A DNA stretch of 9,987 nucleotides from an uncultured Lachnospiraceae bacterium. GTDB lineage: Bacteria; Bacillota_A; Clostridia; Lachnospirales; Lachnospiraceae. A model generated the notes under the pieces. That model did no database searches, was not told where the DNA came from, and was given only the letters and a program-made list of their open reading frames with translations. The position numbers and the translations under genes are program-made. This document shows positions 1,489 through 9,352 of this stretch, one piece after another (positions within the stretch are counted from its first letter, which is position 1; each line of letters starts with the position of its first letter). Location of the stretch: contig CAMWMM010000140.1 in assembly GCA_947175285.1 (NCBI GenBank), forward strand, positions 1 through 9,987, given 5' to 3'.

Positions 1489-1560
1489 GAGTCTATTTTG
1501 AAATGTTTAGTATAATATTTTTTCTTTATTCCATTTTACGAGTTCTTGATATGATACATT

Positions 1561-1588
1561 TCCAATTTTCTTTCATAATAAAATTGGA
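1561..1588. other. AT-rich 9-bp hairpin just after the last cargo gene
   Basis: TCCAATTTT at 1561-1569 and AAAATTGGA at 1580-1588 form a perfect 9-bp stem with a 10-nt loop. It begins 14 nt past the stop codon of the ArgD-family gene. No T tract follows on the minus strand, so it is a weak terminator candidate. It may protect the mRNA 3' end. Confidence 0.4.
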
Positions 1589-1602
1589 ATATACAATAAT
1601 AT

Positions 1603-2790
1603 TTAAAGTAACGTACCTGATAAGCACTCTCCTAAAATATTAAGTCCTATATCAATTTCTTTTTGCGAAATATTCAGCGGCGGCATAATCCGAAGTTTTT
1701 CTTTCGCAGTCAATATCAGAAGTCCGTTTTCCACACACTTCTTTGCAATTTCTCCTGCTTTCAAATCTTTCTTTAAGGACAGACCAAACATCAATCCTAT
1801 TCCTGATACATCAGTAATATTAGGCATAGCTGATAATTTTTCATGCATATAGTCAGATTTGGAATTAACAGCAGACAGAAAATCCGCATCGGCAACCTGA
1901 TTCAATACCTCAATCGCACCAGTACAGACAACCGGATTTCCTCCAAATGTTGAGCCATGATCGCCTGCCTGCAAAATATTTTCAGTCAGTTTATCCATGA
2001 GGATAGCACCAATTGGAAGTCCTGCTCCCAATCCTTTTGCCAGAGTAATCACATTGGGACGTACTTCATAATGTTCACAACATAAAAACGTCCCGGTTCT
2101 GCCCACTCCCGTCTGCACCTCATCCACAATAAGTAAAATGCCCTTTTCACGGCATACCCGTTCAGCCTCTTTTACATATTCTTTTTTCAGTACATTTACT
2201 CCGCTTTCACCTTGCACAAGTTCAAGCATAACTGCACATACTGTATCATCCATAGCTTCCTGCAGTGCATAAATGTCATTTGCCGGAACATACAAAAAAC
2301 CTTCTGTAAAAGGGAAGAAATGCTGATGAAATATATCCTGTCCTGTGGCAGAAAGTGTTGTAACCGTCCTCCCATGAAAAGAGTTTTTCAATGTAATAAT
2401 ACGATTACAATGCTCCCCTTTGGCTTCCATGCCATACTTCCTTGCAATTTTTATTGCCCCTTCATTTGCTTCAGCACCTGAATTTCCAAAGAAAACTTTG
2501 GAATATCCCGTTACTTTGCATAAACGTTCTGCTAAAAGGCTATCCGGCAACGTATAGAATAAATTAGAAGTATGCTGTAATTGTTTTACCTGAGAAACAA
2601 CAGCCTGAACCCATTTATCATTACAAAACCCTAATGAATTTGTCCCAATTCCACTACTAAAGTCTATATATCTTTTTCCCCAAAAATCTTCAGCCTGTGC
2701 TCCATACCCACTTTTTACCGCCACTGGAAAACGATTATAAGTATGAACAATATACTTTTGATCTTTCTCAAAAACATCACTATTTTTCAT
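1603..2790 (-). CDS. argD: Acetylornithine/ornithine-type class III aminotransferase
   Basis: A PLP-dependent class III aminotransferase of 395 residues, the usual ArgD length. Family members move an amino group from N-acetylornithine, ornithine, succinyl-diaminopimelate or GABA to 2-oxoglutarate in the cytoplasm. Visible motifs are DFSSGIGTNSLGF (43-55), GNSGAEANEGAIKIAR (102-117, phosphate binding), SFHGRT (137-142), VDEVQTGVGRTG (222-233) with the cofactor-contacting Asp, and AKGLGAGLPIGA (251-262) with the Schiff-base Lys at 252. STFGGNP follows at 280-286. I chose the ATG at 2790 because GGTGGTGA lies just upstream and homologous proteins begin near here; an upstream in-frame ATG at 2844 would add 18 unlikely residues inside serC. 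It overlaps serC by 11 nt, suggesting coupled translation. The rest of the arginine pathway is absent, so the real substrate is uncertain. Confidence 0.85.
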   Translation of the reverse strand: MKNSDVFEKDQKYIVHTYNRFPVAVKSGYGAQAEDFWGKRYIDFSSGIGTNSLGFCNDKWVQAVVSQVKQLQHTSNLFYTLPDSLLAERLCKVTGYSKVFFGNSGAEANEGAIKIARKYGMEAKGEHCNRIITLKNSFHGRTVTTLSATGQDIFHQHFFPFTEGFLYVPANDIYALQEAMDDTVCAVMLELVQGESGVNVLKKEYVKEAERVCREKGILLIVDEVQTGVGRTGTFLCCEHYEVRPNVITLAKGLGAGLPIGAILMDKLTENILQAGDHGSTFGGNPVVCTGAIEVLNQVADADFLSAVNSKSDYMHEKLSAMPNITDVSGIGLMFGLSLKKDLKAGEIAKKCVENGLLILTAKEKLRIMPPLNISQKEIDIGLNILGECLSGTLL

Positions 2791-3874
2791 GATATTCACC
2801 ACCGTTTTCAAACTCACGCATAAAATCAACCAAATGCTGCACACCCTCTATCGGCATGGCATTATATAAACTTGCTCTCATTCCGCCAATCGCCCGATGC
2901 CCTTTTATACTGATAATTCCATGTTTTTCAGCCTGCTTTATAAACTCTGCATCAATTGCATCTGACTTTGTACGGAAAGTTACATTCATTAAAGATCGAC
3001 TGTCTGCATTTGCCAGACCATAAAACAATGAGCTGGAATCCAGATAGTCATACAAGACTGCCGCCTTTCTTTCATTAATTTCTTTCATCTTCTCCAAGCC
3101 GCCCAATGACTGAATCCATTTAAGCACTTTACCTACCATATAGATATTGTAAGTCGGCGGCGTGTTGTATAACGACTTTTTATCCGCATGGATTTTATAT
3201 TGCAACATAGTTGGCGTATTCGGCAAAACAGTTTCGGAAATCAGGTCTTTATGCATTATAGCAATGACTAATCCGGCAGGTGCAAGATTTTTCTGCACAC
3301 CGCCAAAAAGCATACCATAATCTGAAACATTCATCGGTTCCGATAAAAAGCTGGAAGATATATCATTCACAAGTACCTTTCCATGACTGTTCGGACAGCA
3401 ATGAAATTTTGTTCCATAGATAGTATTGTTTTCACACATATATACGTAGTCTGAATCTTGAGATATTTCTAAATCACTGCAATCCGGGATATATGAAAAA
3501 TTGTCCCCTTCCGAAGATGCTGCAATATTGATCTGTCCGTATCTTTTCGCTTCCTCATATGCCTTCTTTGCCCAATATCCTGTCAAAATATAATCTGCTT
3601 TTCCATTCCGCATAAAATTCATTGGAATCATGGAAAATTGCAGGGAAGTTCCACCTTGCAGAAATAAAACTACATAATCGTTTGGAATCTTCATAAGTGT
3701 GCGTAAATTCTGCTCTGTTTCATCAATAATGGACTGGAACAGGGACGAACGGTGGCTGATTTCCATAACGGACATACCGCTGCCCTTATAGTCTAACATT
3801 TCATCTGCTGCTTCCTGCAAAACGGATTCCGGTAAAACTGCCGGACCTGCTGAAAAATTATACACATTTCTCAT
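2780..3874 (-). CDS. serC: Phosphoserine aminotransferase (SerC, class V)
   Basis: A 364-residue protein of normal SerC length. SerC converts 3-phosphohydroxypyruvate and glutamate to phosphoserine and 2-oxoglutarate in serine synthesis, and some members also act in vitamin B6 synthesis. The N-terminus carries NFSAGPA (6-12). HRSSLF (41-46), QGGTS (73-77), ENNTIYGT (148-155), NDISSSFLSEP with the cofactor-contacting Asp at 171, and GGVQKNLAPAG (191-201) with the Schiff-base Lys at 195 all match the family. GHRAIGGMRASLYNAMP near the C-terminus is the typical SerC substrate-arginine region. The ATG at 3874 has a perfect AGGAGG (plus 3881-3886) with a 6-nt spacer. It lies 41 nt after the EpsN-like gene and overlaps the ArgD-family gene by 11 nt. 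SerA and SerB are not in the window, so it may be a duplicate used for a related substrate. Confidence 0.92.
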   Translation of the reverse strand: MRNVYNFSAGPAVLPESVLQEAADEMLDYKGSGMSVMEISHRSSLFQSIIDETEQNLRTLMKIPNDYVVLFLQGGTSLQFSMIPMNFMRNGKADYILTGYWAKKAYEEAKRYGQINIAASSEGDNFSYIPDCSDLEISQDSDYVYMCENNTIYGTKFHCCPNSHGKVLVNDISSSFLSEPMNVSDYGMLFGGVQKNLAPAGLVIAIMHKDLISETVLPNTPTMLQYKIHADKKSLYNTPPTYNIYMVGKVLKWIQSLGGLEKMKEINERKAAVLYDYLDSSSLFYGLANADSRSLMNVTFRTKSDAIDAEFIKQAEKHGIISIKGHRAIGGMRASLYNAMPIEGVQHLVDFMREFENGGEYHEK

Positions 3875-3915
3875 AAAAAACCTCCTAAACTTCTATCGAA
3901 TCTACAACAGTAATT

Positions 3916-5043
3916 TTACTGCTGCCGGAACTGTTTCCTCACAATTTTTATGATACGCTCCATATCCTCTTCCGTATTTTTAATATCACTCGGCAAGCAA
4001 AGCCCTCTGTTAAAAATATCTTCACTTACGCTCATGCCATCCTCTACCTGAATAAAATCATATTCTTCAAATGCAGGCTGCAAATGCATCGGTTTCCATA
4101 TCGGTCTTGTTTCAATATTCTCAGCTTCTAAGGCATCCATAACCTGCGTTGGCGTTACACTGCTGTCTGGTGAAATCGTCATACAAGAAAGCCAGTTATT
4201 ATCAATACCGTCCTTGTTCAATGGATTCATTTCTATTTCTTTTATATCAGAAAAGGCTTCTTTATACGCTTTATAAATTTCGTGTTTCTTCTGTATATGC
4301 TCCTCAATATGCTGCATCTGACCGCACCCTATTCCAGCAACAACATTTGACATCCTGTAATTATATCCAATCGTAGAATGTTGATAATGTCTGGCAGGAT
4401 CACGAGCCTGTTTGGATAAAAAACGAGCTTTCTCTATGTCTTTTTCCTGTCTGGCAACCAGTATACCTCCGCCCGAAGTTGTAATGATCTTGTTTCCATT
4501 AAATGAATAAATCCCATAATCTCCGAAAGTACCCGTCATTTTTCCTTTATATGTCGTACCTAACGATTCAGCCGCATCTTCAATCAATGGAACATCATGC
4601 TCCTTGCAAAGAGCGCATATTTTGTCCATATTAGCTGATGTGCCGTACAAATGCACAGCCATGACAGCCTTCGGGTGAGGATATTTTTCAAATGCTTTTC
4701 TTAATGCCGTTGCATCCATATTCCATGTGTCACGCTCTGAGTCAATAAAAACCGGAACTGCTTTCTCATATCTGACCGGATTAACACTTGCCGCAAATGT
4801 CAGGGAAGGAACGAACACAATATCATTTTCTTTCACCCCTGCTAAAACAATTGACAAATGCAGTGCCGCTGTTCCAGACGACAGTGCAGCAGAAGAAGGT
4901 ACTCCCACATAAGCCGCCACTTTATCCTCAAATTCATCTACATTCGGTCCTAACGGTGCAATCCAGTTTGTTTCAAACGCTTTCTGAATATACTGCTCCT
5001 CCTCCGTATGCATGGTAGGAGTAGCCAAAAGAATTTTCTTCAT
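3916..5043 (-). CDS. epsN: DegT/DnrJ/EryC1 (EpsN-like) aminotransferase
   Basis: A 375-residue PLP enzyme of the DegT/DnrJ/EryC1/StrS family, which aminates 4-keto or 3-keto nucleotide sugars, usually with glutamate as donor. It resembles Bacillus EpsN closely from memory: NWIAPLGPNVDEFE (26-39), SSGTAALHLS (55-64), PVFIDSERDTWNMD (97-110), EDAAESLG (155-162), and SFNGNKIITTSGGG (180-193) with the Schiff-base Lys at 185. RPIWKPMHLQPAF near the C-terminus is also typical. The start is the second of two adjacent ATG codons: a GGGGG site at plus 5051-5055 is 7 nt from it but only 4 nt from the ATG at 5046, which remains an alternative. It lies 52 nt after the PhnW-like gene and 41 nt before serC. 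No glycosyltransferase or sugar-nucleotide dehydratase is nearby, so a sugar role is not supported by context and the substrate may differ. Confidence 0.85.
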   Translation of the reverse strand: MKKILLATPTMHTEEEQYIQKAFETNWIAPLGPNVDEFEDKVAAYVGVPSSAALSSGTAALHLSIVLAGVKENDIVFVPSLTFAASVNPVRYEKAVPVFIDSERDTWNMDATALRKAFEKYPHPKAVMAVHLYGTSANMDKICALCKEHDVPLIEDAAESLGTTYKGKMTGTFGDYGIYSFNGNKIITTSGGGILVARQEKDIEKARFLSKQARDPARHYQHSTIGYNYRMSNVVAGIGCGQMQHIEEHIQKKHEIYKAYKEAFSDIKEIEMNPLNKDGIDNNWLSCMTISPDSSVTPTQVMDALEAENIETRPIWKPMHLQPAFEEYDFIQVEDGMSVSEDIFNRGLCLPSDIKNTEEDMERIIKIVRKQFRQQ

Positions 5044-5095
5044 CATTCTGCCCCCTTACATTTTTATTCCTGTTCTTTTGATATAAAACAGGCTA

Positions 5096-6226
5096 TTAAG
5101 TATCATAGTGAATAGGTATCTGAATATTATTTTCTTTGAGTGCCTCATACAGAACAATAAAAAAGTCTTCGATATCCTTCTTTGTGATAGCTCCAAGCGC
5201 ACAAAGCCGAAATGTGTTCTGTGCCGATGTCTTTCCAGGATATATAGTAAATCCGCGCTCATAGCAATAATCATGTACCTTTTCAAAACTCCAGTTTTCA
5301 TCATCCGGGTATTTCACTGTAACGCCAAGACCTGCTTGTAATTCTCTTTTGATAATATCCTTGAAGCCAAGTTTATCAAGCCCTGCATGGATTGCCTCAA
5401 ACACCTCTGAATGTCTTTTCCATTTTGCATCTTCGCCTTCCGCAAAATATTCATCGAGTGCTTGACGAGCAGCATAAATAGTCTGGACGGGTGGCGTGAA
5501 ATGCATCTCGCCTGTTATCTCAAAAAAGTGATACTGCATATACAAATTGCAATAATACGAGCGTTTAGGATATGATGCTGATTTTTTAATCATTTCTATA
5601 TTTCCAATGACAAAAGAAAGCCCTGTCATTGCCATCAGTCCCTTTTGTGCAGATGCCATGCAGAAATCAATATTATCTCTTTCAATATCAATCGGACGCA
5701 TCGCATAAGTGGAAATTGTGTCTACTATAAAAACCGCATTATATTTATGTGCAAGTGAACCAATTTCTCTAACAGGATTTAAGATACCCGTACCTGTTTC
5801 ATTATGTGTTGCATAAACAAGCGCAATATCAGGATTTTCTTTTAATACCTGTTCCATCTTGTCTAAGTCTGGCAATTCATCTATCGGACATATAAAATTA
5901 AAGGACGGAAGACTATAATATTCACAAATTTCTGCCGCCCTCATACTGTAACTTCCATTATTGACAATCAATATCTTCTTTCCTTCAGGTAAAAGTGAAT
6001 TGATACACACATCCATAGTAAGCGTGCCTGAACCACAAAAAAGTATAGAAGTATATTTATTTAGATCACCATGCACAATCCTAACCAAATCCTCACGCAT
6101 CTGTTTCATCATTGATGAAAATTCTTTTTCGCGCGGACAAATATCAGGTACAACCTGCGCCATTTTTACGGTATCTGTTGTTGTTGCGGGACCGGGATTT
6201 AAAAGAATATTTCTTTTTATCTGCAT
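5096..6226 (-). CDS. phnW: 2-aminoethylphosphonate--pyruvate aminotransferase-like (PhnW) class V enzyme
   Basis: A 376-residue class V PLP aminotransferase. Characterised PhnW interconverts 2-aminoethylphosphonate plus pyruvate with phosphonoacetaldehyde plus alanine. The sequence shows LLNPGPATTTDTV (8-20), VVPDICPREKEF (25-36), FCGSGTLTMD (63-72), ATHNETGTG (139-147), FIVDTIST (166-173) with the PLP-contacting Asp, and ASAQKGLMAMTGLSF (191-205) with the Schiff-base Lys at 195. These match the PhnW group. I prefer the ATG at 6226: GGGGG at plus 6238-6242 is 11 nt away, while the in-frame TTG at 6235 is only 2 nt from it. The gene follows the LysE-type exporter by 20 nt. PEP mutase, phosphonopyruvate decarboxylase and phosphonatase are all absent, so a phosphonate substrate is unproven and another amino-aldehyde or keto acid is possible. 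Confidence 0.8.
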   Translation of the reverse strand: MQIKRNILLNPGPATTTDTVKMAQVVPDICPREKEFSSMMKQMREDLVRIVHGDLNKYTSILFCGSGTLTMDVCINSLLPEGKKILIVNNGSYSMRAAEICEYYSLPSFNFICPIDELPDLDKMEQVLKENPDIALVYATHNETGTGILNPVREIGSLAHKYNAVFIVDTISTYAMRPIDIERDNIDFCMASAQKGLMAMTGLSFVIGNIEMIKKSASYPKRSYYCNLYMQYHFFEITGEMHFTPPVQTIYAARQALDEYFAEGEDAKWKRHSEVFEAIHAGLDKLGFKDIIKRELQAGLGVTVKYPDDENWSFEKVHDYCYERGFTIYPGKTSAQNTFRLCALGAITKKDIEDFFIVLYEALKENNIQIPIHYDT

Positions 6227-6246
6227 ATTCAGCAATACCCCCTTTG

Positions 6247-6831
6247 CTATCTTAACATACTATATACACACTCTAATAAGGTCAGGGCAAGAATAATGTT
6301 AATCGCCCTATAATGTTTTTGATATGCCTTTTGTATCAGCACCCCCATACCAACCCATGTTAGTGTTGCAGCTGTTCCTATTGTTGCAATAATGAGTTCA
6401 AACAGCAGCAAAATCCATAAGGAAGTGTTGTAATCTGTGACATATCCTGTCAATGCAGTAATTCCAAATAAATAAATTTTTACATTGACAAACTGTAATA
6501 AAAATCCTTTTATAAATGATGCCGATTTTTCTGTATCACCTGTAGTTGGCTTGCTCAACGCAATATGGACTGCCAACCATAAAATATAAGCAGCTCCTAT
6601 ATATTTCATAATACCAAGCACATTCGGTAAAAAGGTACTTACCCCAAATACAAAAATTGCACATATAATCTGTACAACATAGTAGCCTGCAAAAATCCCC
6701 CAAAAAAGTGGTTTTCCTTTTTTATATCCATAGTTCGTTACTGTATTTAGTGCCAGAATATTCCCCGGTCCCGGAGTAAAAGCATTGATAACAGAATAGA
6801 TAAAAAAATTACCTAATACATAACCCGGCAT
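6247..6831 (-). CDS. LysE/RhtB-family amino-acid exporter
   Basis: A 194-residue membrane protein of usual LysE/RhtB length. It starts at ATG 6831 behind a strong AAAGGAGGC site (plus 6838-6846); an upstream in-frame ATG at 6876 would add a highly basic 15-residue segment running through this site and is rejected. It shows about five to six hydrophobic segments: roughly residues 5-25, 40-68, 74-92, 107-130, 138-160 and 176-192. The diagnostic FTPGPGNILAL (18-28) ends the first helix region, and FLLQFVNVKIYLFG (110-123) is the family's second conserved region. Members export lysine, arginine, threonine, homoserine, cysteine or O-acetylserine by proton antiport; the substrate cannot be read from sequence. 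It heads the aminotransferase block, 20 nt before the PhnW-like gene, and a LysR-type palindrome lies upstream. The context suggests it exports an amino acid made or handled by the four aminotransferases (inference). Confidence 0.9.
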   Translation of the reverse strand: MPGYVLGNFFIYSVINAFTPGPGNILALNTVTNYGYKKGKPLFWGIFAGYYVVQIICAIFVFGVSTFLPNVLGIMKYIGAAYILWLAVHIALSKPTTGDTEKSASFIKGFLLQFVNVKIYLFGITALTGYVTDYNTSLWILLLFELIIATIGTAATLTWVGMGVLIQKAYQKHYRAINIILALTLLECVYSMLR

Positions 6832-6907
6832 TTTTATGCCTCCTTTCCGTTTCTTTACCTTAGCACGGAACGTCATGTAATAGGTAATATCTGTTTTATA
6901 TGCTTTT

Positions 6908-6926
6908 ACATAGGGTGAGCCTATGT
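6908..6926. promoter_or_regulatory. Palindrome with LysR-type T-N11-A box upstream of the exporter
   Basis: ACATAGG at 6908-6914 and CCTATGT at 6920-6926 form a perfect 7-bp dyad with a 5-nt centre. It contains the T-N11-A pattern typical of LysR-family binding sites. It lies 77 nt upstream of the exporter start and directly after the lysR stop codon. On the minus strand a TATAAA (plus 6895-6900) follows 7 nt downstream and could be a -10 element. The likely reading is a regulatory site for the exporter/aminotransferase block. A weak terminator for lysR is the alternative. Confidence 0.5.
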
Positions 6927-6931
6927 TTTAT

Positions 6932-7831
6932 TTATGTCTGATACTGTTTCAAAGCCTCAACATAAATCTCCCCTAACTCTGATAGTTCTTTATCCTTGTT
7001 CAGTATGTATCCAATATGCATTACCTCATTTTCATCCAAAGGGATAGAAACGATAGAATCTCCCTGCAGGTATTTAGGGAAAATACCGCTTGAGATTGTA
7101 TATCCATCTAATCCAATCATCAGATTCACAATAGCAGCACGGTCACTGACCTTAATACTCCTGTCAGCAGGTTCGTTGCTGAAAAGTTCCTCTGAAAAAT
7201 TGGAGGATTCATAAGTTCCCTGCACAAAACTGAGCCGGGGATATGGTTTCAGATCATCCAGCTTAACAGATGTGCGTTTTGCCAACGGGTGGTTTATACC
7301 AATAAAGATGTGAGGTGTTGCCGTAAATAATTCATAAAAATTCAAATTATACTCTTCAAACAGCTTTCTCAGCACATTTGCATTACTGTTGCAAAGATAT
7401 AGGATTCCCAAATCACTAAACCTGTTTCGCACATCTTCCACAATCTGATGCGTCTGTGTTTCATTCAGGATAAACTCAAACCTTTCCTGTCCAAAATGCT
7501 GTATCAATTCCACAAACGCATTTGTCGTAAAGGTATAGTGCTGCGTGGAAACGCAAAATCTCTGTTTGGCAGGCTTTTTATCAATATATTTTGCTTCCAG
7601 AAGTTCCATCTGCTGGACTACCTGCCTTGCATATCCTAAAAACTCCATGCCCTCCTTTGTCAGTGCCACTCCTGCCCGGCATCGGCTGAAAATTGTTATT
7701 CCGGCTTCTTTTTCTACCTCTTTGATAGCACCGGACAGACTTGGCTGAGAAATATACAGTTCTTTCGCCGCTTCCGTAATAGAGCCTCTTTCTGCAACGA
7801 TTATCATATATTTTAATTGCTGTAGTGTCAT
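6932..7831 (-). CDS. LysR-family transcriptional regulator
   Basis: A 299-residue protein of standard LysR length, with GGAGG four nt upstream of the ATG at 7831. Residues about 2-62 form the LysR helix-turn-helix: MTLQQLKYMIIVAERGSITE, AAKELYISQPSLSGAIKEVEKEAG and TIFSR, then a linker helix to about 85. Residues about 90-297 look like the two-lobed periplasmic-binding-protein-type effector domain, with HIFIGINHPLAK and SDRAAIVNLMIGLDGYTISSG as recognisable stretches. It is encoded 100 nt before the exporter and on the same strand, not divergently as many LysR regulators are. The palindrome at 6908-6926 is a candidate binding site. LysR proteins beside LysE exporters often sense the exported amino acid (as with LysG/LysE), so a similar arrangement is likely here (inference). 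Confidence 0.92.
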   Translation of the reverse strand: MTLQQLKYMIIVAERGSITEAAKELYISQPSLSGAIKEVEKEAGITIFSRCRAGVALTKEGMEFLGYARQVVQQMELLEAKYIDKKPAKQRFCVSTQHYTFTTNAFVELIQHFGQERFEFILNETQTHQIVEDVRNRFSDLGILYLCNSNANVLRKLFEEYNLNFYELFTATPHIFIGINHPLAKRTSVKLDDLKPYPRLSFVQGTYESSNFSEELFSNEPADRSIKVSDRAAIVNLMIGLDGYTISSGIFPKYLQGDSIVSIPLDENEVMHIGYILNKDKELSELGEIYVEALKQYQT

Positions 7832-7875
7832 GCTTCCTCCAATCTAAGCAAACTATGGTATTTGGTATATTTATC

Positions 7876-7881
7876 ATTATA
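7876..7881 (-). promoter_or_regulatory. Candidate -10 element for lysR
   Basis: The 62-nt gap between the ACT gene and lysR contains a perfect TATAAT on the minus strand, 44 nt upstream of the lysR start codon. I find no good -35 at 16-18 nt, so it may need an activator or may be fortuitous in this AT-rich gap. If real, lysR has its own promoter in addition to read-through from upstream. Confidence 0.35.
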
Positions 7882-7893
7882 AAATGTTTTTCA

Positions 7894-8259
7894 TCAGACT
7901 ATATCATATCCAGCCGAAACTAATGCTTTTAAGGTTCTGTCAAAGTTTTCCTCTTTCACAAGAATATAATCTGTATTGAAAGTTGATACTGCAAAAATGC
8001 CAATTTTATTATCAGCAAGGATACAGGATAGTTTAGATAAAATTCCAATCAGTGAAAAATCTAACACTCCCTGTATTCTAAAGCCTTTCCACCCATCATC
8101 CCTCTCAGTGGTGTTTATAGGCGTATCCTCCGTAATACATACTAAAGAATATTCTTCATCTGTTTTTCCAATGAAATAAAACTCTTTATTCAAATCAATA
8201 TCAAGTTCTGATGCAACTTTACAAACAGTCAAAGAATAGTCCAATTTTTTAATTTCCAT
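7894..8259 (-). CDS. ACT_7 (CASTOR-like) amino-acid-binding domain protein
   Basis: A 121-residue cytoplasmic protein. The ATG at 8259 has GAGGTGA immediately upstream; an earlier in-frame start at 8325 would overlap the GNAT gene by 22 nt and lacks a comparable site. Residues about 59-120 match the ACT_7 pattern: GFRIQGVLDFSLIGILSKL, then a helix-strand stretch with LADNKIGIFAVSTFNTDYIL, then EENFDRTLKALVSAGYDI. The N-terminal half (1-58) resembles the partner domain found in these small proteins. ACT domains bind amino acids allosterically, and bacterial members of this type resemble the amino-acid sensor CASTOR1 in fold (family knowledge). It lacks a catalytic or DNA-binding partner domain, so it is probably a stand-alone sensor or protein regulator. 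It lies 44 nt after the GNAT gene and 62 nt before lysR, suggesting sensing of the same amino compound. Confidence 0.82.
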   Translation of the reverse strand: MEIKKLDYSLTVCKVASELDIDLNKEFYFIGKTDEEYSLVCITEDTPINTTERDDGWKGFRIQGVLDFSLIGILSKLSCILADNKIGIFAVSTFNTDYILVKEENFDRTLKALVSAGYDIV

Positions 8260-8303
8260 AATCACCTCAAAACTGACAGTTATAAACGTCAAATTTATTG
8301 TCT

Positions 8304-8723
8304 TTAAAGGCTTTTTTTCATCCAAACATGAGGACAGCCTTCATCATCATCAATATCACCAAATTCAGTAAAACCTAAATTTTGATAAAAAGCGGTTATC
8401 CTGCATTGGGCGTGTAAAGCTATACATTTTCCACCATTTTTTTGAATATATTTTTCTGCTTCTTTGATAATGACAGAACCTATATTTTTGCCACGATATT
8501 CTTTGATAACTGCAAGCCTGCCTAATATATATGTATTCATCACTGCATCCCAAAATATGCGGCAGGTTGCAATCGGCATCTTATCCCCGTCAAACATTAC
8601 AATATGTGTAGCGGTTTCATCTATATCATCAAATTCATTATGAAATCCCTGCTCATCTACAAATACTTTCTGTCTGACTTCTTTTGCATGATTGGGAATA
8701 CCCTCATATATCACGGTTTCCAT
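8304..8723 (-). CDS. GNAT-family N-acetyltransferase
   Basis: A 139-residue protein with the GNAT acetyl-CoA fold. The N-terminal VRQKVFVDEQGFHNEFDDID (16-35) is typical of a GNAT subgroup that includes ElaA-like and YjcF-like enzymes. Motif A is visible as LGRLAVIKEYRGKNIGSVII (67-86), with the pyrophosphate-binding RGKNIG at 77-82. ALHAQCRITAFYQNLGFTEFG (102-122) is motif B, and GCPHVWMKK closes the fold. The ATG at 8723 follows AGGAGG with an 11-nt spacer. It is the first gene of the minus-strand run and has a strong promoter just upstream. The substrate is unknown. Its position before an ACT sensor and an amino-acid exporter would fit acetylation of an amino compound (inference), but many GNAT genes are cargo with unrelated roles. 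Confidence 0.9.
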   Translation of the reverse strand: METVIYEGIPNHAKEVRQKVFVDEQGFHNEFDDIDETATHIVMFDGDKMPIATCRIFWDAVMNTYILGRLAVIKEYRGKNIGSVIIKEAEKYIQKNGGKCIALHAQCRITAFYQNLGFTEFGDIDDDEGCPHVWMKKSL

Positions 8724-8773
8724 AATAAATTTATCCTCCTAAATATCTGCTTGCCTCTATCAATAATATTGAA

Positions 8774-8802
8774 ATTATAGCACACGCCCAACCGGATCAC
8801 AA
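8774..8802 (-). promoter_or_regulatory. Sigma-A-type promoter for the GNAT-led operon
   Basis: On the minus strand a -35 TTGTGA (plus 8797-8802) is followed after exactly 17 nt by a consensus -10 TATAAT (plus 8774-8779). An upstream TG makes it an extended -10 (TGCTATAAT). Transcription would start near 8767, about 44 nt before the GNAT start codon. This is the best promoter in the window and could transcribe the entire eight-gene run, as no strong terminator is visible between its genes. Confidence 0.8.
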
Positions 8803-8946
8803 TGATATATATTGCTCTTTTGACCTCTCCTTTCTCTGTTCTTGGGCTTGATCCGTTTGCATACCTTGCGGTAATCCCGATACTCTGTCTAACAATTTTT
8901 CATATTTTCCAACAGATAGGAATATAAAAATCCTATGCTTTAACAT
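8797..8946 (-). CDS. Possible 49-residue small ORF or gene remnant
   Basis: An ATG at 8946, weakly preceded by AGGA, opens a 49-codon frame ending in TGA at 8797. Residues about 15-43 (YEKLLDRVSGLPQGMQTDQA and on to RSKE) are hydrophilic and less AT-biased than the surroundings. They vaguely resemble small phage or mobile-element proteins with an RVSGLP-type motif. The frame overlaps the -35 of the GNAT promoter. It may be a decayed fragment of an element gene; no function is claimed. Confidence 0.2.
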   Translation of the reverse strand: MLKHRIFIFLSVGKYEKLLDRVSGLPQGMQTDQAQEQRKERSKEQYISL

Positions 8947-8983
8947 AGTTTTTTCCTATATTTTAACACAATCTCCTATATTT
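8916..8983. repeat. Short AT-rich iterated repeats (TCCTATATTT)
   Basis: TCCTATATTT occurs at 8954-8963 and 8974-8983, exactly 20 bp apart. A related TCCTATGCTTT is at 8931-8941, and an inverted copy begins with ATAGGA at 8916-8921, pairing with TCCTAT at 8931-8936. CTATG/CATAG (8933-8937, 8944-8948) adds another small dyad. The set lies 115-180 nt upstream of the GNAT promoter and could bind a regulator or be a mobile-element remnant. Confidence 0.45.
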
Positions 8984-9020
8984 CATAATATATATCTACT
9001 GGTTATGCAATTTTTTCTGT

Positions 9021-9129
9021 ATTCCAAGAACCAGAATTCTTGAAGTTTATTTTCTTTACTTCTTGGATTCCGAAAATTAAAACTCTCGAAGTCATCTTTT
9101 TGAACTTCTGCAATTCTAAAAATCAGAAT
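9021..9129. repeat. Degenerate 46-bp tandem direct repeat, about 2.4 copies
   Basis: Copy A (9021-9066), copy B (9067-9112) and the start of copy C (9113-9129) all begin with ATTC at an exact 46-bp period. A and B agree at 29 of 46 positions, and 11 of the 17 differences are transitions. Copy C matches for its first 17 bases (ATTCTAAAAATCAGAAT), which form an ATTCT/AGAAT hairpin. GAAGT and ACTTC in copies A and B form a second small hairpin in each. The period is not a multiple of three, so this is not a protein repeat. Confidence 0.6.
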
Positions 9130-9200
9130 GTAACAATACTAAAAATAATTAGACTGAGTATAGTCATACTGAATCAATCCTATCCTAGAGACTTCCCTTT

Positions 9201-9352
9201 GCATCGTGGACAATGTGCATAACTGGCTATGGAGTCATGGATAACACTGTTCACAGCACATGGAAAAGCTAAAGTGCAGCTTTCCCACATCCTGCAAACA
9301 GCGTTACCCACAACTCCATAAACAGCCAGTTATACGACATTGCCCACAATGC
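9201..9352 (-). repeat. Long imperfect inverted repeat; candidate minus-strand structured RNA or ssDNA hairpin
   Basis: Bases 9201-9270 pair with 9278-9352 around a 7-nt loop (9271-9277). Of 70 aligned pairs I count 57 Watson-Crick, 12 that are A-C or C-A on the plus strand, and one C-C (9257/9291), with a 4-nt bulge at 9321-9324 and a 1-nt bulge at 9336. All 12 become G-U pairs on the minus strand. The arms also carry repeated DnaA-box-like 9-mers near TTATCCACA, spaced about 22-23 bp, including the reverse complement of TTATGCACA at 9214-9222. It may be a structured RNA, a folded ssDNA site used in transfer or replication, or a MITE-like repeat. Confidence 0.75.

Follow-up and report, generated by a model that had tools for sequence, protein, structure and literature searches.

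Self-resistance by means of a duplicated, insensitive target is a known arrangement in which a housekeeping-like isozyme is carried with a mobile or cluster locus, and the cases known to us duplicate one kind of target. The locus described here, a gene cassette of an uncultured Lachnospiraceae bacterium comprising a LysR-type regulator, an exporter and several pyridoxal 5'-phosphate (PLP) enzymes, likewise carries housekeeping-like isozymes but differs in having up to five unrelated enzymes that have only their cofactor and fold type in common. It was found in a stretch of 9,987 nucleotides (the window; positions 1 to 9,987 of contig CAMWMM010000140.1, assembly GCA_947175285.1), which is nearly the whole of a 10,272-base contig in a binned assembly of 5.6 Mb (504 contigs, 8.7% contamination).

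Regarding the closest described systems, the RidA/2-aminoacrylate paradigm includes, to our knowledge, no spare isozymes; RidA removes a reactive enamine, whereas profile searches gave no Rid-family match among the cassette proteins. It resembles the role proposed below in that one small molecule, 2-aminoacrylate, damages several PLP enzymes at once (PMC9127364). Proteins enriched under high 2-aminoacrylate stress include MetB, and those enriched by a PLP probe in one workflow include ArgD (PMC12172467); SerC goes unmentioned in the sections of both articles considered here (PMC9127364; PMC12172467). In Pseudomonas aeruginosa, a role in the export of AMB, an inhibitor of PLP enzymes, and in protection from it has been proposed for the LysE-type protein AmbA (PMC4357302); the amb locus shares with the cassette a LysE-family exporter tied to a PLP-poisoning amino acid, but, as far as it is described in the sections considered, has nonribosomal peptide synthetase and oxygenase biosynthesis genes and no spare PLP isozymes, whereas no biosynthesis genes were recognised in the cassette. 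Similarly, the gvg locus of P. fluorescens WH6 combines the LysE-family exporters GvgJ and GvgK, at least one of which is needed for survival of the producer and which are needed for export of 4-formylaminooxyvinylglycine (FVG), with one class III aminotransferase (PMC8067088), but it has a MocR regulator and carbamoyl- and formyltransferases, and its one aminotransferase is taken as biosynthetic. In none of the AMB, FVG and 2-aminoacrylate parallels does an exporter occur together with several spare isozymes. Resistance by efflux and by target duplication is known, and a set of as many as five unrelated PLP isozymes, mixed and matched between loci, is undescribed in the open-access literature searched, in agreement with a preliminary description of this DNA that knew of no system of this composition. 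The best explanation that we can offer, and a tentative one, is that the locus is a mobile cassette conferring tolerance to an amino-acid-like compound that poisons PLP enzymes, acting by export, perhaps acetylation, and isozyme bypass.

The composition of the cassette can be read directly from the window. Open reading frames (ORFs) and family profiles confirmed that an exporter and four aminotransferases of different PLP families lie in one minus-strand operon, as first described, and the unit extends upstream of the exporter, beyond the block originally delimited, to give the order GNAT, ACT_7, LysR, EamB-like LysE/RhtB exporter, PhnW/AepZ, LegC-type DegT, SerC and ArgD (Table 1). The tight spacing reported earlier was also recovered with ATG starts, with gaps of 20, 49 and 41 nt and an 11-nt overlap of SerC and ArgD; the PhnW-DegT gap is 52 nt rather than 49 if the DegT start lies one codon later. 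Sequence and PDB alignments placed a lysine in the expected local motif of all four enzymes (SAQKGLM, NGNKIITT, GVQKNL and LAKGLG), which we take to be the Schiff-base lysines, and the five PLP enzymes common to several loci are presumably all of fold-type I, as assigned from their families. PhnW passes the AepZ/PhnW model TIGR03301 (441 bits, cut-off 361), SerC passes NF003764 (520.9 bits, cut-off 253) and TIGR01364 (491 bits, cut-off 444), and ArgD passes the subfamily cut-off of TIGR00707 (434 against 410 bits), with no equivalog cut-off reached among the best 25 of 69 families. DegT fails the LegC model TIGR04181 (380 bits, cut-off 420) and is assigned to the DegT sugar-aminotransferase type only. 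The best NCBIfam model of the exporter is the cysteine/O-acetylserine transporter NF007653 (EamB of Escherichia coli), yet its 145.5 bits lie under the equivalog cut-off of 193, so that membership reaches the LysE superfamily (PF01810) only; unlike E. coli EamB, the cassette exporter lies in an operon behind a LysR gene and a regulatory box. Known RNA elements and tRNAs were searched for and none were found.

The gene order is not confined to one genome. A PhnW scan of genome contigs gave 26 loci (designated here by L and a number), mostly of Lachnospiraceae where cassette-bearing, of which 12 have other cassette genes and the others PhnW alone or nearly so; further loci came to light through searches with the exporter. 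Of 299 family genomes, 30 gave an exporter match at E<=1e-20, ten (own genome included) with at least 68% identity and the others with at most 37%, and of 38 genus genomes 8 gave one at E<=1e-10, six (own genome included) with at least 78%. Strain and sample names suggest that the carriers inhabit the gut. In fuller copies, two genes are placed between PhnW and DegT, namely MetY, an O-acetylhomoserine/O-acetylserine sulfhydrylase (TIGR01326, 576-579 bits against a cut-off of 495), and a ferredoxin of the EFR1 family (75.9 bits against 75). In the window, the end of PhnW meets the start of DegT with both of these gone, as seen by blastn against L032 and L033, and the window copy is evidently a deletion derivative of the fuller cassette.

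Intact subsets, an intact gene being a single open frame covering more than 93% of the query, were compared between the window and 27 fetched loci, with L134, whose contig equals that of L033 in length, counted as the same place as L033 to give 27 places; L101 and L102, both from one genome, may represent opposite ends of a single copy, and some gene breaks may be assembly errors. At least one PLP gene is intact at 16 of the 27 places (DegT at 12, MetY at 9, SerC at 8, ArgD at 6 and PhnW at 4), and these 16 loci hold eight different subsets in a constant gene order. All five genes are intact in L032 and L033, and four in the window (no MetY), L031 (no DegT), L048 (PhnW broken) and L107 (no PhnW); L105 retains MetY, DegT and SerC, and L034 MetY and SerC, its MetY (residues 1-391 of 420) barely counting as intact. 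MetY alone is intact in L049, which ends at the contig end, and L050, and DegT alone in L055, L056, L095, L133, L135 and L136. Remnants of absent genes, for example PhnW pieces in L052, L053, L055, L056 and L095, indicate loss rather than gain, and by eye the retained cistrons keep ribosome-site-like sequence at the junctions inspected. A fixed, committed enzyme set that is kept together, as in a biosynthetic cluster, was thus not found among the eight intact subsets of the 16 loci. In L145 (9644-10885) the first part of PhnW is fused in frame to DegT through a deletion, and L107 and L108 are two different cassette copies in one binned assembly (G016, 7% contamination).

Selection was assessed by pairwise ratios of nonsynonymous to synonymous substitution rates (dN/dS) between copies with at least 78% identity, excluding nearly identical or saturated pairs; intact frames only were entered, which biases against decay, and the duplicate L134 is among the rows for LysR, EamB, PhnW and ACT. 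Median dN/dS was 0.035 for LysR, 0.075 for EamB, 0.122 for ACT, 0.182 for GNAT and 0.115 for EFR1 (three sequences), and among the PLP enzymes 0.104 for PhnW, 0.043 for MetY, 0.068 for DegT, 0.055 for SerC and 0.141 for ArgD, with median dS across the cassette genes of 0.38-0.88, and of roughly 0.5-0.9 for LysR, EamB and the five enzymes. The exporter, the LysR regulator and the five enzymes are therefore evidently under purifying selection. L135 and L136 have, by eye, a common exporter-DegT junction with DegT as the sole survivor of the five enzymes; the exporter is broken in L136, and DegT differs between the two with a dN/dS of 0.12 at a dS of 0.24. L055 and L056 also have a common junction, with about ten differing sites and a dN/dS of 0.18. 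DegT thus appears constrained without the other enzymes and worth keeping alone, which a linear pathway does not predict; together with the varying subsets, this speaks against enzymes working in a linear series and in favour of spare isozymes that are each useful independently.

Regarding regulation, a dyad, ACATAGG-N5-CCTATGT, lies in the gap that separates LysR from the exporter; it has the T-N11-A form that LysR sites are known to take, and it is also kept at the enzyme-free LysR-exporter loci L096-L098. The longer box ATAGG-N6-CTATG-N5-GCATA was sought with up to two substitutions in 23 sequences (L146 being a repeat of L033), where letter shuffles predict 0.2 matches overall. It lies upstream of the exporter exactly in 18 of the 23, with one substitution in L055 and with two in L100; within two substitutions none was found before the exporter in L053, L099 and L031, the last of which starts inside the exporter. 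A second exact box is present at 6 of 22 places, before GNAT (the window, L033 with its repeat L146, and L107), ACT (L032) or LysR (L048, L095), the remaining places having the exporter box only; GNAT and ACT, where present, therefore belong to the circuit. A scan of 397 family genomes gave 12 exact boxes, spread over 10 genomes, nine of them (7 genomes) at LysR-exporter loci and three elsewhere, against one occurrence of a reversed-pattern control; one off-locus box (L235) sits by unrelated genes, and the other two were tested for cassette genes only. With up to two mismatches the box is hardly enriched (18 against 14 for the reversed control in 12 genomes), and the genome-wide argument therefore uses exact matches and position only. 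On these grounds the LysR regulator seems to be dedicated to the cassette. LysR-exporter pairs without cassette enzymes occur in other genera (L096, L097, L098, L099, L100 and L240), most with the same box; in L097 an ArgD remnant lies right after the exporter, and in L098 a gene read as cysteine desulfurase-like lies about 1.5 kb upstream of LysR.

If the cassette enzymes are duplicated targets, the host should have ordinary copies, and these were found for all five, within one binned assembly with its 8.7% contamination. The ordinary SerC (65% identity) lies beside a SerA-like gene, PhnW (80%) beside a PEP mutase fusion and a phosphonopyruvate decarboxylase, both above cut-off, ArgD (38%) beside ArgB above cut-off, and DegT (66%) beside exopolysaccharide-type genes; MetY (58%, with the query taken from L033, as the window has no MetY) stands alone by reading. 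Four of the five thus have their own pathway context (aep, ser, arg and polysaccharide loci). When 24-40 genomes were sampled, the closest ordinary relatives were found at 72-73% for MetY in two other families, at 54% for ArgD in another family, and in the own genus at 67% for SerC and DegT and 84% for PhnW, and the set therefore looks assembled piece by piece from different lineages.

The SerC of the cassette forms a separate clade. Among the best 120 of 7,998 scored proteins, full-length matches drop from at least 74% to at most 69% identity, and in a tree of 89 rows one branch (100/100, length 0.65) separates 63 cassette-type from 26 ordinary rows, a split that is partly expected because rows were labelled by identity. 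A loop that presumably holds the cofactor phosphate reads GGTSLQ in the cassette type and GGASQQ or GGASTQ in ordinary SerC, with T in 56 of 63 cassette rows against A in 26 of 26 ordinary rows, and L in 61 of 63 against 1 of 26. The change G198A, considered as a cassette-specific active-site change, was dropped since it is present in only 19 of 63 cassette rows. With profile A1, SerC was found at E<=1e-180 in 120 of 392 order genomes, none cassette-like by score except the window (756.2 bits, all others at most 656.4, the ordinary SerC of the own genome 647.9). For ArgD, a search at E<=1e-150 gave the own genome only among 391 class and 299 family genomes, and a protein search gave many matches at 60-71% identity, which may be of the cassette type or ordinary and some of which are named acetylornithine or aspartate aminotransferase family. 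Of 58 cassette-type SerC, 11 (ten with 74-80% identity and one with 93%) have exactly the same longest-contig size as one of 120 listed ArgD matches, against 0 of 60 control SerC, two controls being partial cassette-type fragments and P0179 and P0180 being in neither list. Names among such proteins include Oscillospiraceae and Desulfovibrionaceae bins, and from this indirect evidence the cassette SerC seems to be linked to ArgD beyond the genus.

Regarding mobility, a NikA/MobC-type mobilisation gene lies on the opposite strand beyond the 3' end of the block (706-1047), which together with a weak HTH_11 protein at the contig end (3-425) points to an integrative or mobilisable element. Flanks differ between copies, with a serine recombinase and RepA_N in L107, RepA_N in L033 and MobC in the window, but L145 is flanked by rpe and ychF, and L144 by a gene that reads as mutS-like (by reading only). 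In L047 (8892-9974) a phage-type integrase-like gene abuts a truncated PhnW, and transposase-like genes follow a truncated ArgD. The 7.1-kb block had no megablast match in phage or plasmid records; viral contigs contained no close ArgD or cassette-type SerC (SerC at 50%, ArgD-like at 32% or less), and plasmids gave 14 matches of the cassette-type SerC, all below 60% identity. An anti-phage function was rejected, as the only PADLOC hits, those of PhnW and DegT to DndA/SspA, were weak and partial.

Table 1. Positions of the cassette features in the window.
Feature	Position	Strand	Evidence or remark
Regulatory box ATAGG-N6-CTATG-N5-GCATA, upstream of GNAT	8934..8961	-	same position in L033, L107
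GNAT N-acetyltransferase	8304..8723	-	Pfam PF13673/PF00583; adjoins cassette in L033, L049, L107
ACT_7 domain protein	ORF 7894..8325, likely start ~8259	-	PF13840 66.8 bits
LysR-type regulator	6932..7831	-	PF00126/PF03466; median dN/dS 0.035
Second regulatory box, dyad ACATAGG-N5-CCTATGT (T-N11-A), LysR-exporter gap	6899..6926	-	
LysE/RhtB exporter, nearest EamB	6247..6831 (ORF 6247-6876; likely ATG 6831)	-	Pfam LysE (PF01810) 42.5 bits
PhnW/AepZ-family aminotransferase	5096..6226 (ORF to 6235; ATG 6226)	-	TIGR03301 441 bits
Deletion junction, MetY and EFR1 of fuller copies gone	5061..5069	.	blastn against L032/L033; junction sequences
LegC-type DegT aminotransferase	3916..5046	-	PF01041 331 bits; TIGR04181 380 bits
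SerC, separate SerC clade	2780..3874	-	NF003764 521 bits; TIGR01364 491 bits
ArgD-family class III aminotransferase	1603..2790 (ORF 1603-2844; ATG 2790)	-	TIGR00707 434 bits

Several further genes accompany individual copies. In L032 an HMGL-family (homocitrate/isopropylmalate synthase-like) gene is inserted between LysR and the exporter (7779-9227) and came with a duplicated LysR-exporter gap, giving it its own box copy, seen as a third box with one substitution before the inserted gene. A TIGR04100-type radical SAM gene directly follows ArgD in L031 (5009-5608) and L032 (16792-17394), the profile match having been made on the L032 copy, and is absent from the window. In L033 a RumMC-like radical SAM sactipeptide maturase gene (1555-3198, under the family cut-off) lies a few kb from the cassette, accompanied by an ABC transporter-like gene.

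An exporter, an acetyltransferase, an ACT protein and spare isozymes in one LysR circuit fit tolerance to a poison of PLP enzymes. In such a mechanism, LysR would sense an amino-acid-like compound, bind the box and switch on two units via two boxes, GNAT-ACT-LysR and exporter-PLP enzymes. The EamB-like exporter would remove the compound, its presumed substrate, GNAT may acetylate it, and the cassette PLP enzymes would replace the poisoned isozymes of the host, through lower sensitivity or bypass; the replacements would stem from serine, methionine/cysteine, arginine, aminoethylphosphonate (AEP) and amino-sugar pathways. Candidate poisons are 2-aminoacrylate-type enamines, oxyvinylglycines, and aminooxy acids or aminothiols. 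Of the two readings in the preliminary description, target-duplicate enzymes that counter an inhibitor of PLP enzymes fit better, the LysR/box circuit, GNAT and ACT now being added to them, while the formation of an unusual amino acid is weakened by the ordinary, unrelated families, the eight subsets at 16 loci and the lone DegT under purifying selection.

The tolerance function is putative, and several observations weigh against it. PhnW and DegT come from pathways of the capsule or glycan type and are not obvious essential targets, central fold-type I enzymes such as GlyA and AspC are absent from the set, and EFR1 has no clear part in the scheme. No cassette PLP genes were found at the other-genera loci L096-L100, L103, L104 and L240 except the ArgD remnant of L097, and DegT is the only intact cassette enzyme in L095. 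At positions where the ordinary copies agree, PhnW shows few cassette-specific changes (2, against 24 ordinary rows), as do MetY (10, of which one is a gap; 6 rows) and ArgD (6, three being gap columns at the N-terminus; 6 rows); SerC (47; 6 rows) and DegT (25; 3 rows) show more, but these counts rest on few ordinary rows. Seven SerC positions, presumably pocket residues, are conserved, namely K195, W101, D171, Q194, T238 and R333 without exception in the 63 cassette rows and R327 in 62 of them. Resistance is therefore not evident from the sequence.

A rather unlikely alternative is that LysR raises amino-group metabolism (serine, methionine/cysteine, arginine, AEP and amino sugars) in one niche, with the exporter venting surplus cysteine or O-acetylserine and each enzyme useful alone, so that no poison is involved. 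The nearness of the exporter to EamB, the place of SerC and MetY in serine and sulfur-amino-acid metabolism, and purifying selection combined with independent loss all agree with this; however, no partner enzymes of these pathways were seen in the blocks read, ordinary isozymes are already present, and some mobile flanks, the sporadic distribution and repeated decay fit an occasional rather than a constant need. Neither condition that the preliminary description named as refuting it came true, since other genomes share the gene order and no pathway partners adjoining the block were seen in the ORF lists of L031-L033 and L107 (L031 begins inside the exporter, so that this holds for its downstream side only), and neither pepM nor ppd was recognised by reading in the window, L032 or L033.

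Clearly unlikely is a biosynthetic operon in which the PLP enzymes work one after another, MetY coupling a nucleophile to O-acetylhomoserine, to make an unusual amino acid that is secreted by the exporter and detoxified in the producer by GNAT. Vinylglycine clusters do contain LysE exporters, and gvg also one aminotransferase (PMC8067088; PMC4357302). The SerC-ArgD linkage seems to persist beyond the genus, and the earlier statement that carbon-skeleton enzymes are missing holds for the window but not for fuller copies, which add MetY and, in L032, the HMGL-family synthase; EFR1 is a further addition there. Against this, subsets differ between loci with DegT constrained alone, no committed carbon-skeleton, ligase or kinase step is common to the loci read, and the enzymes score within ordinary families. 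It is improbable that the genes are cargo without joint function, gathered behind the strong LysR promoter of a mobile LysR-EamB module and each kept for its own reason or passively, as enzyme-free LysR-box-EamB loci in other genera, the HMGL insertion with its duplicated box and the mosaic nearest relatives would allow, given that the five enzymes common to several loci presumably all share fold-type I, the SerC-ArgD linkage seems deep and the order is constant.

Returning to tolerance, the cassette might represent a new mobile element guarding a cofactor class, a broader proposal that we regard as doubtful: a mix-and-match assortment of replacement PLP enzymes under LysR control, joined to an amino-acid exporter and an acetyltransferase, would have spread through Lachnospiraceae and, from the SerC-ArgD contig linkage, probably beyond, in response to a PLP-enzyme poison of the habitat. 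If this is true, carriers would encounter a natural poison of PLP enzymes so frequently that a movable replacement set is selected; that poison could then be sought directly by way of the cassette, its box and its LysR regulator, and resistance by target duplication would be widened from one enzyme to a cofactor class.

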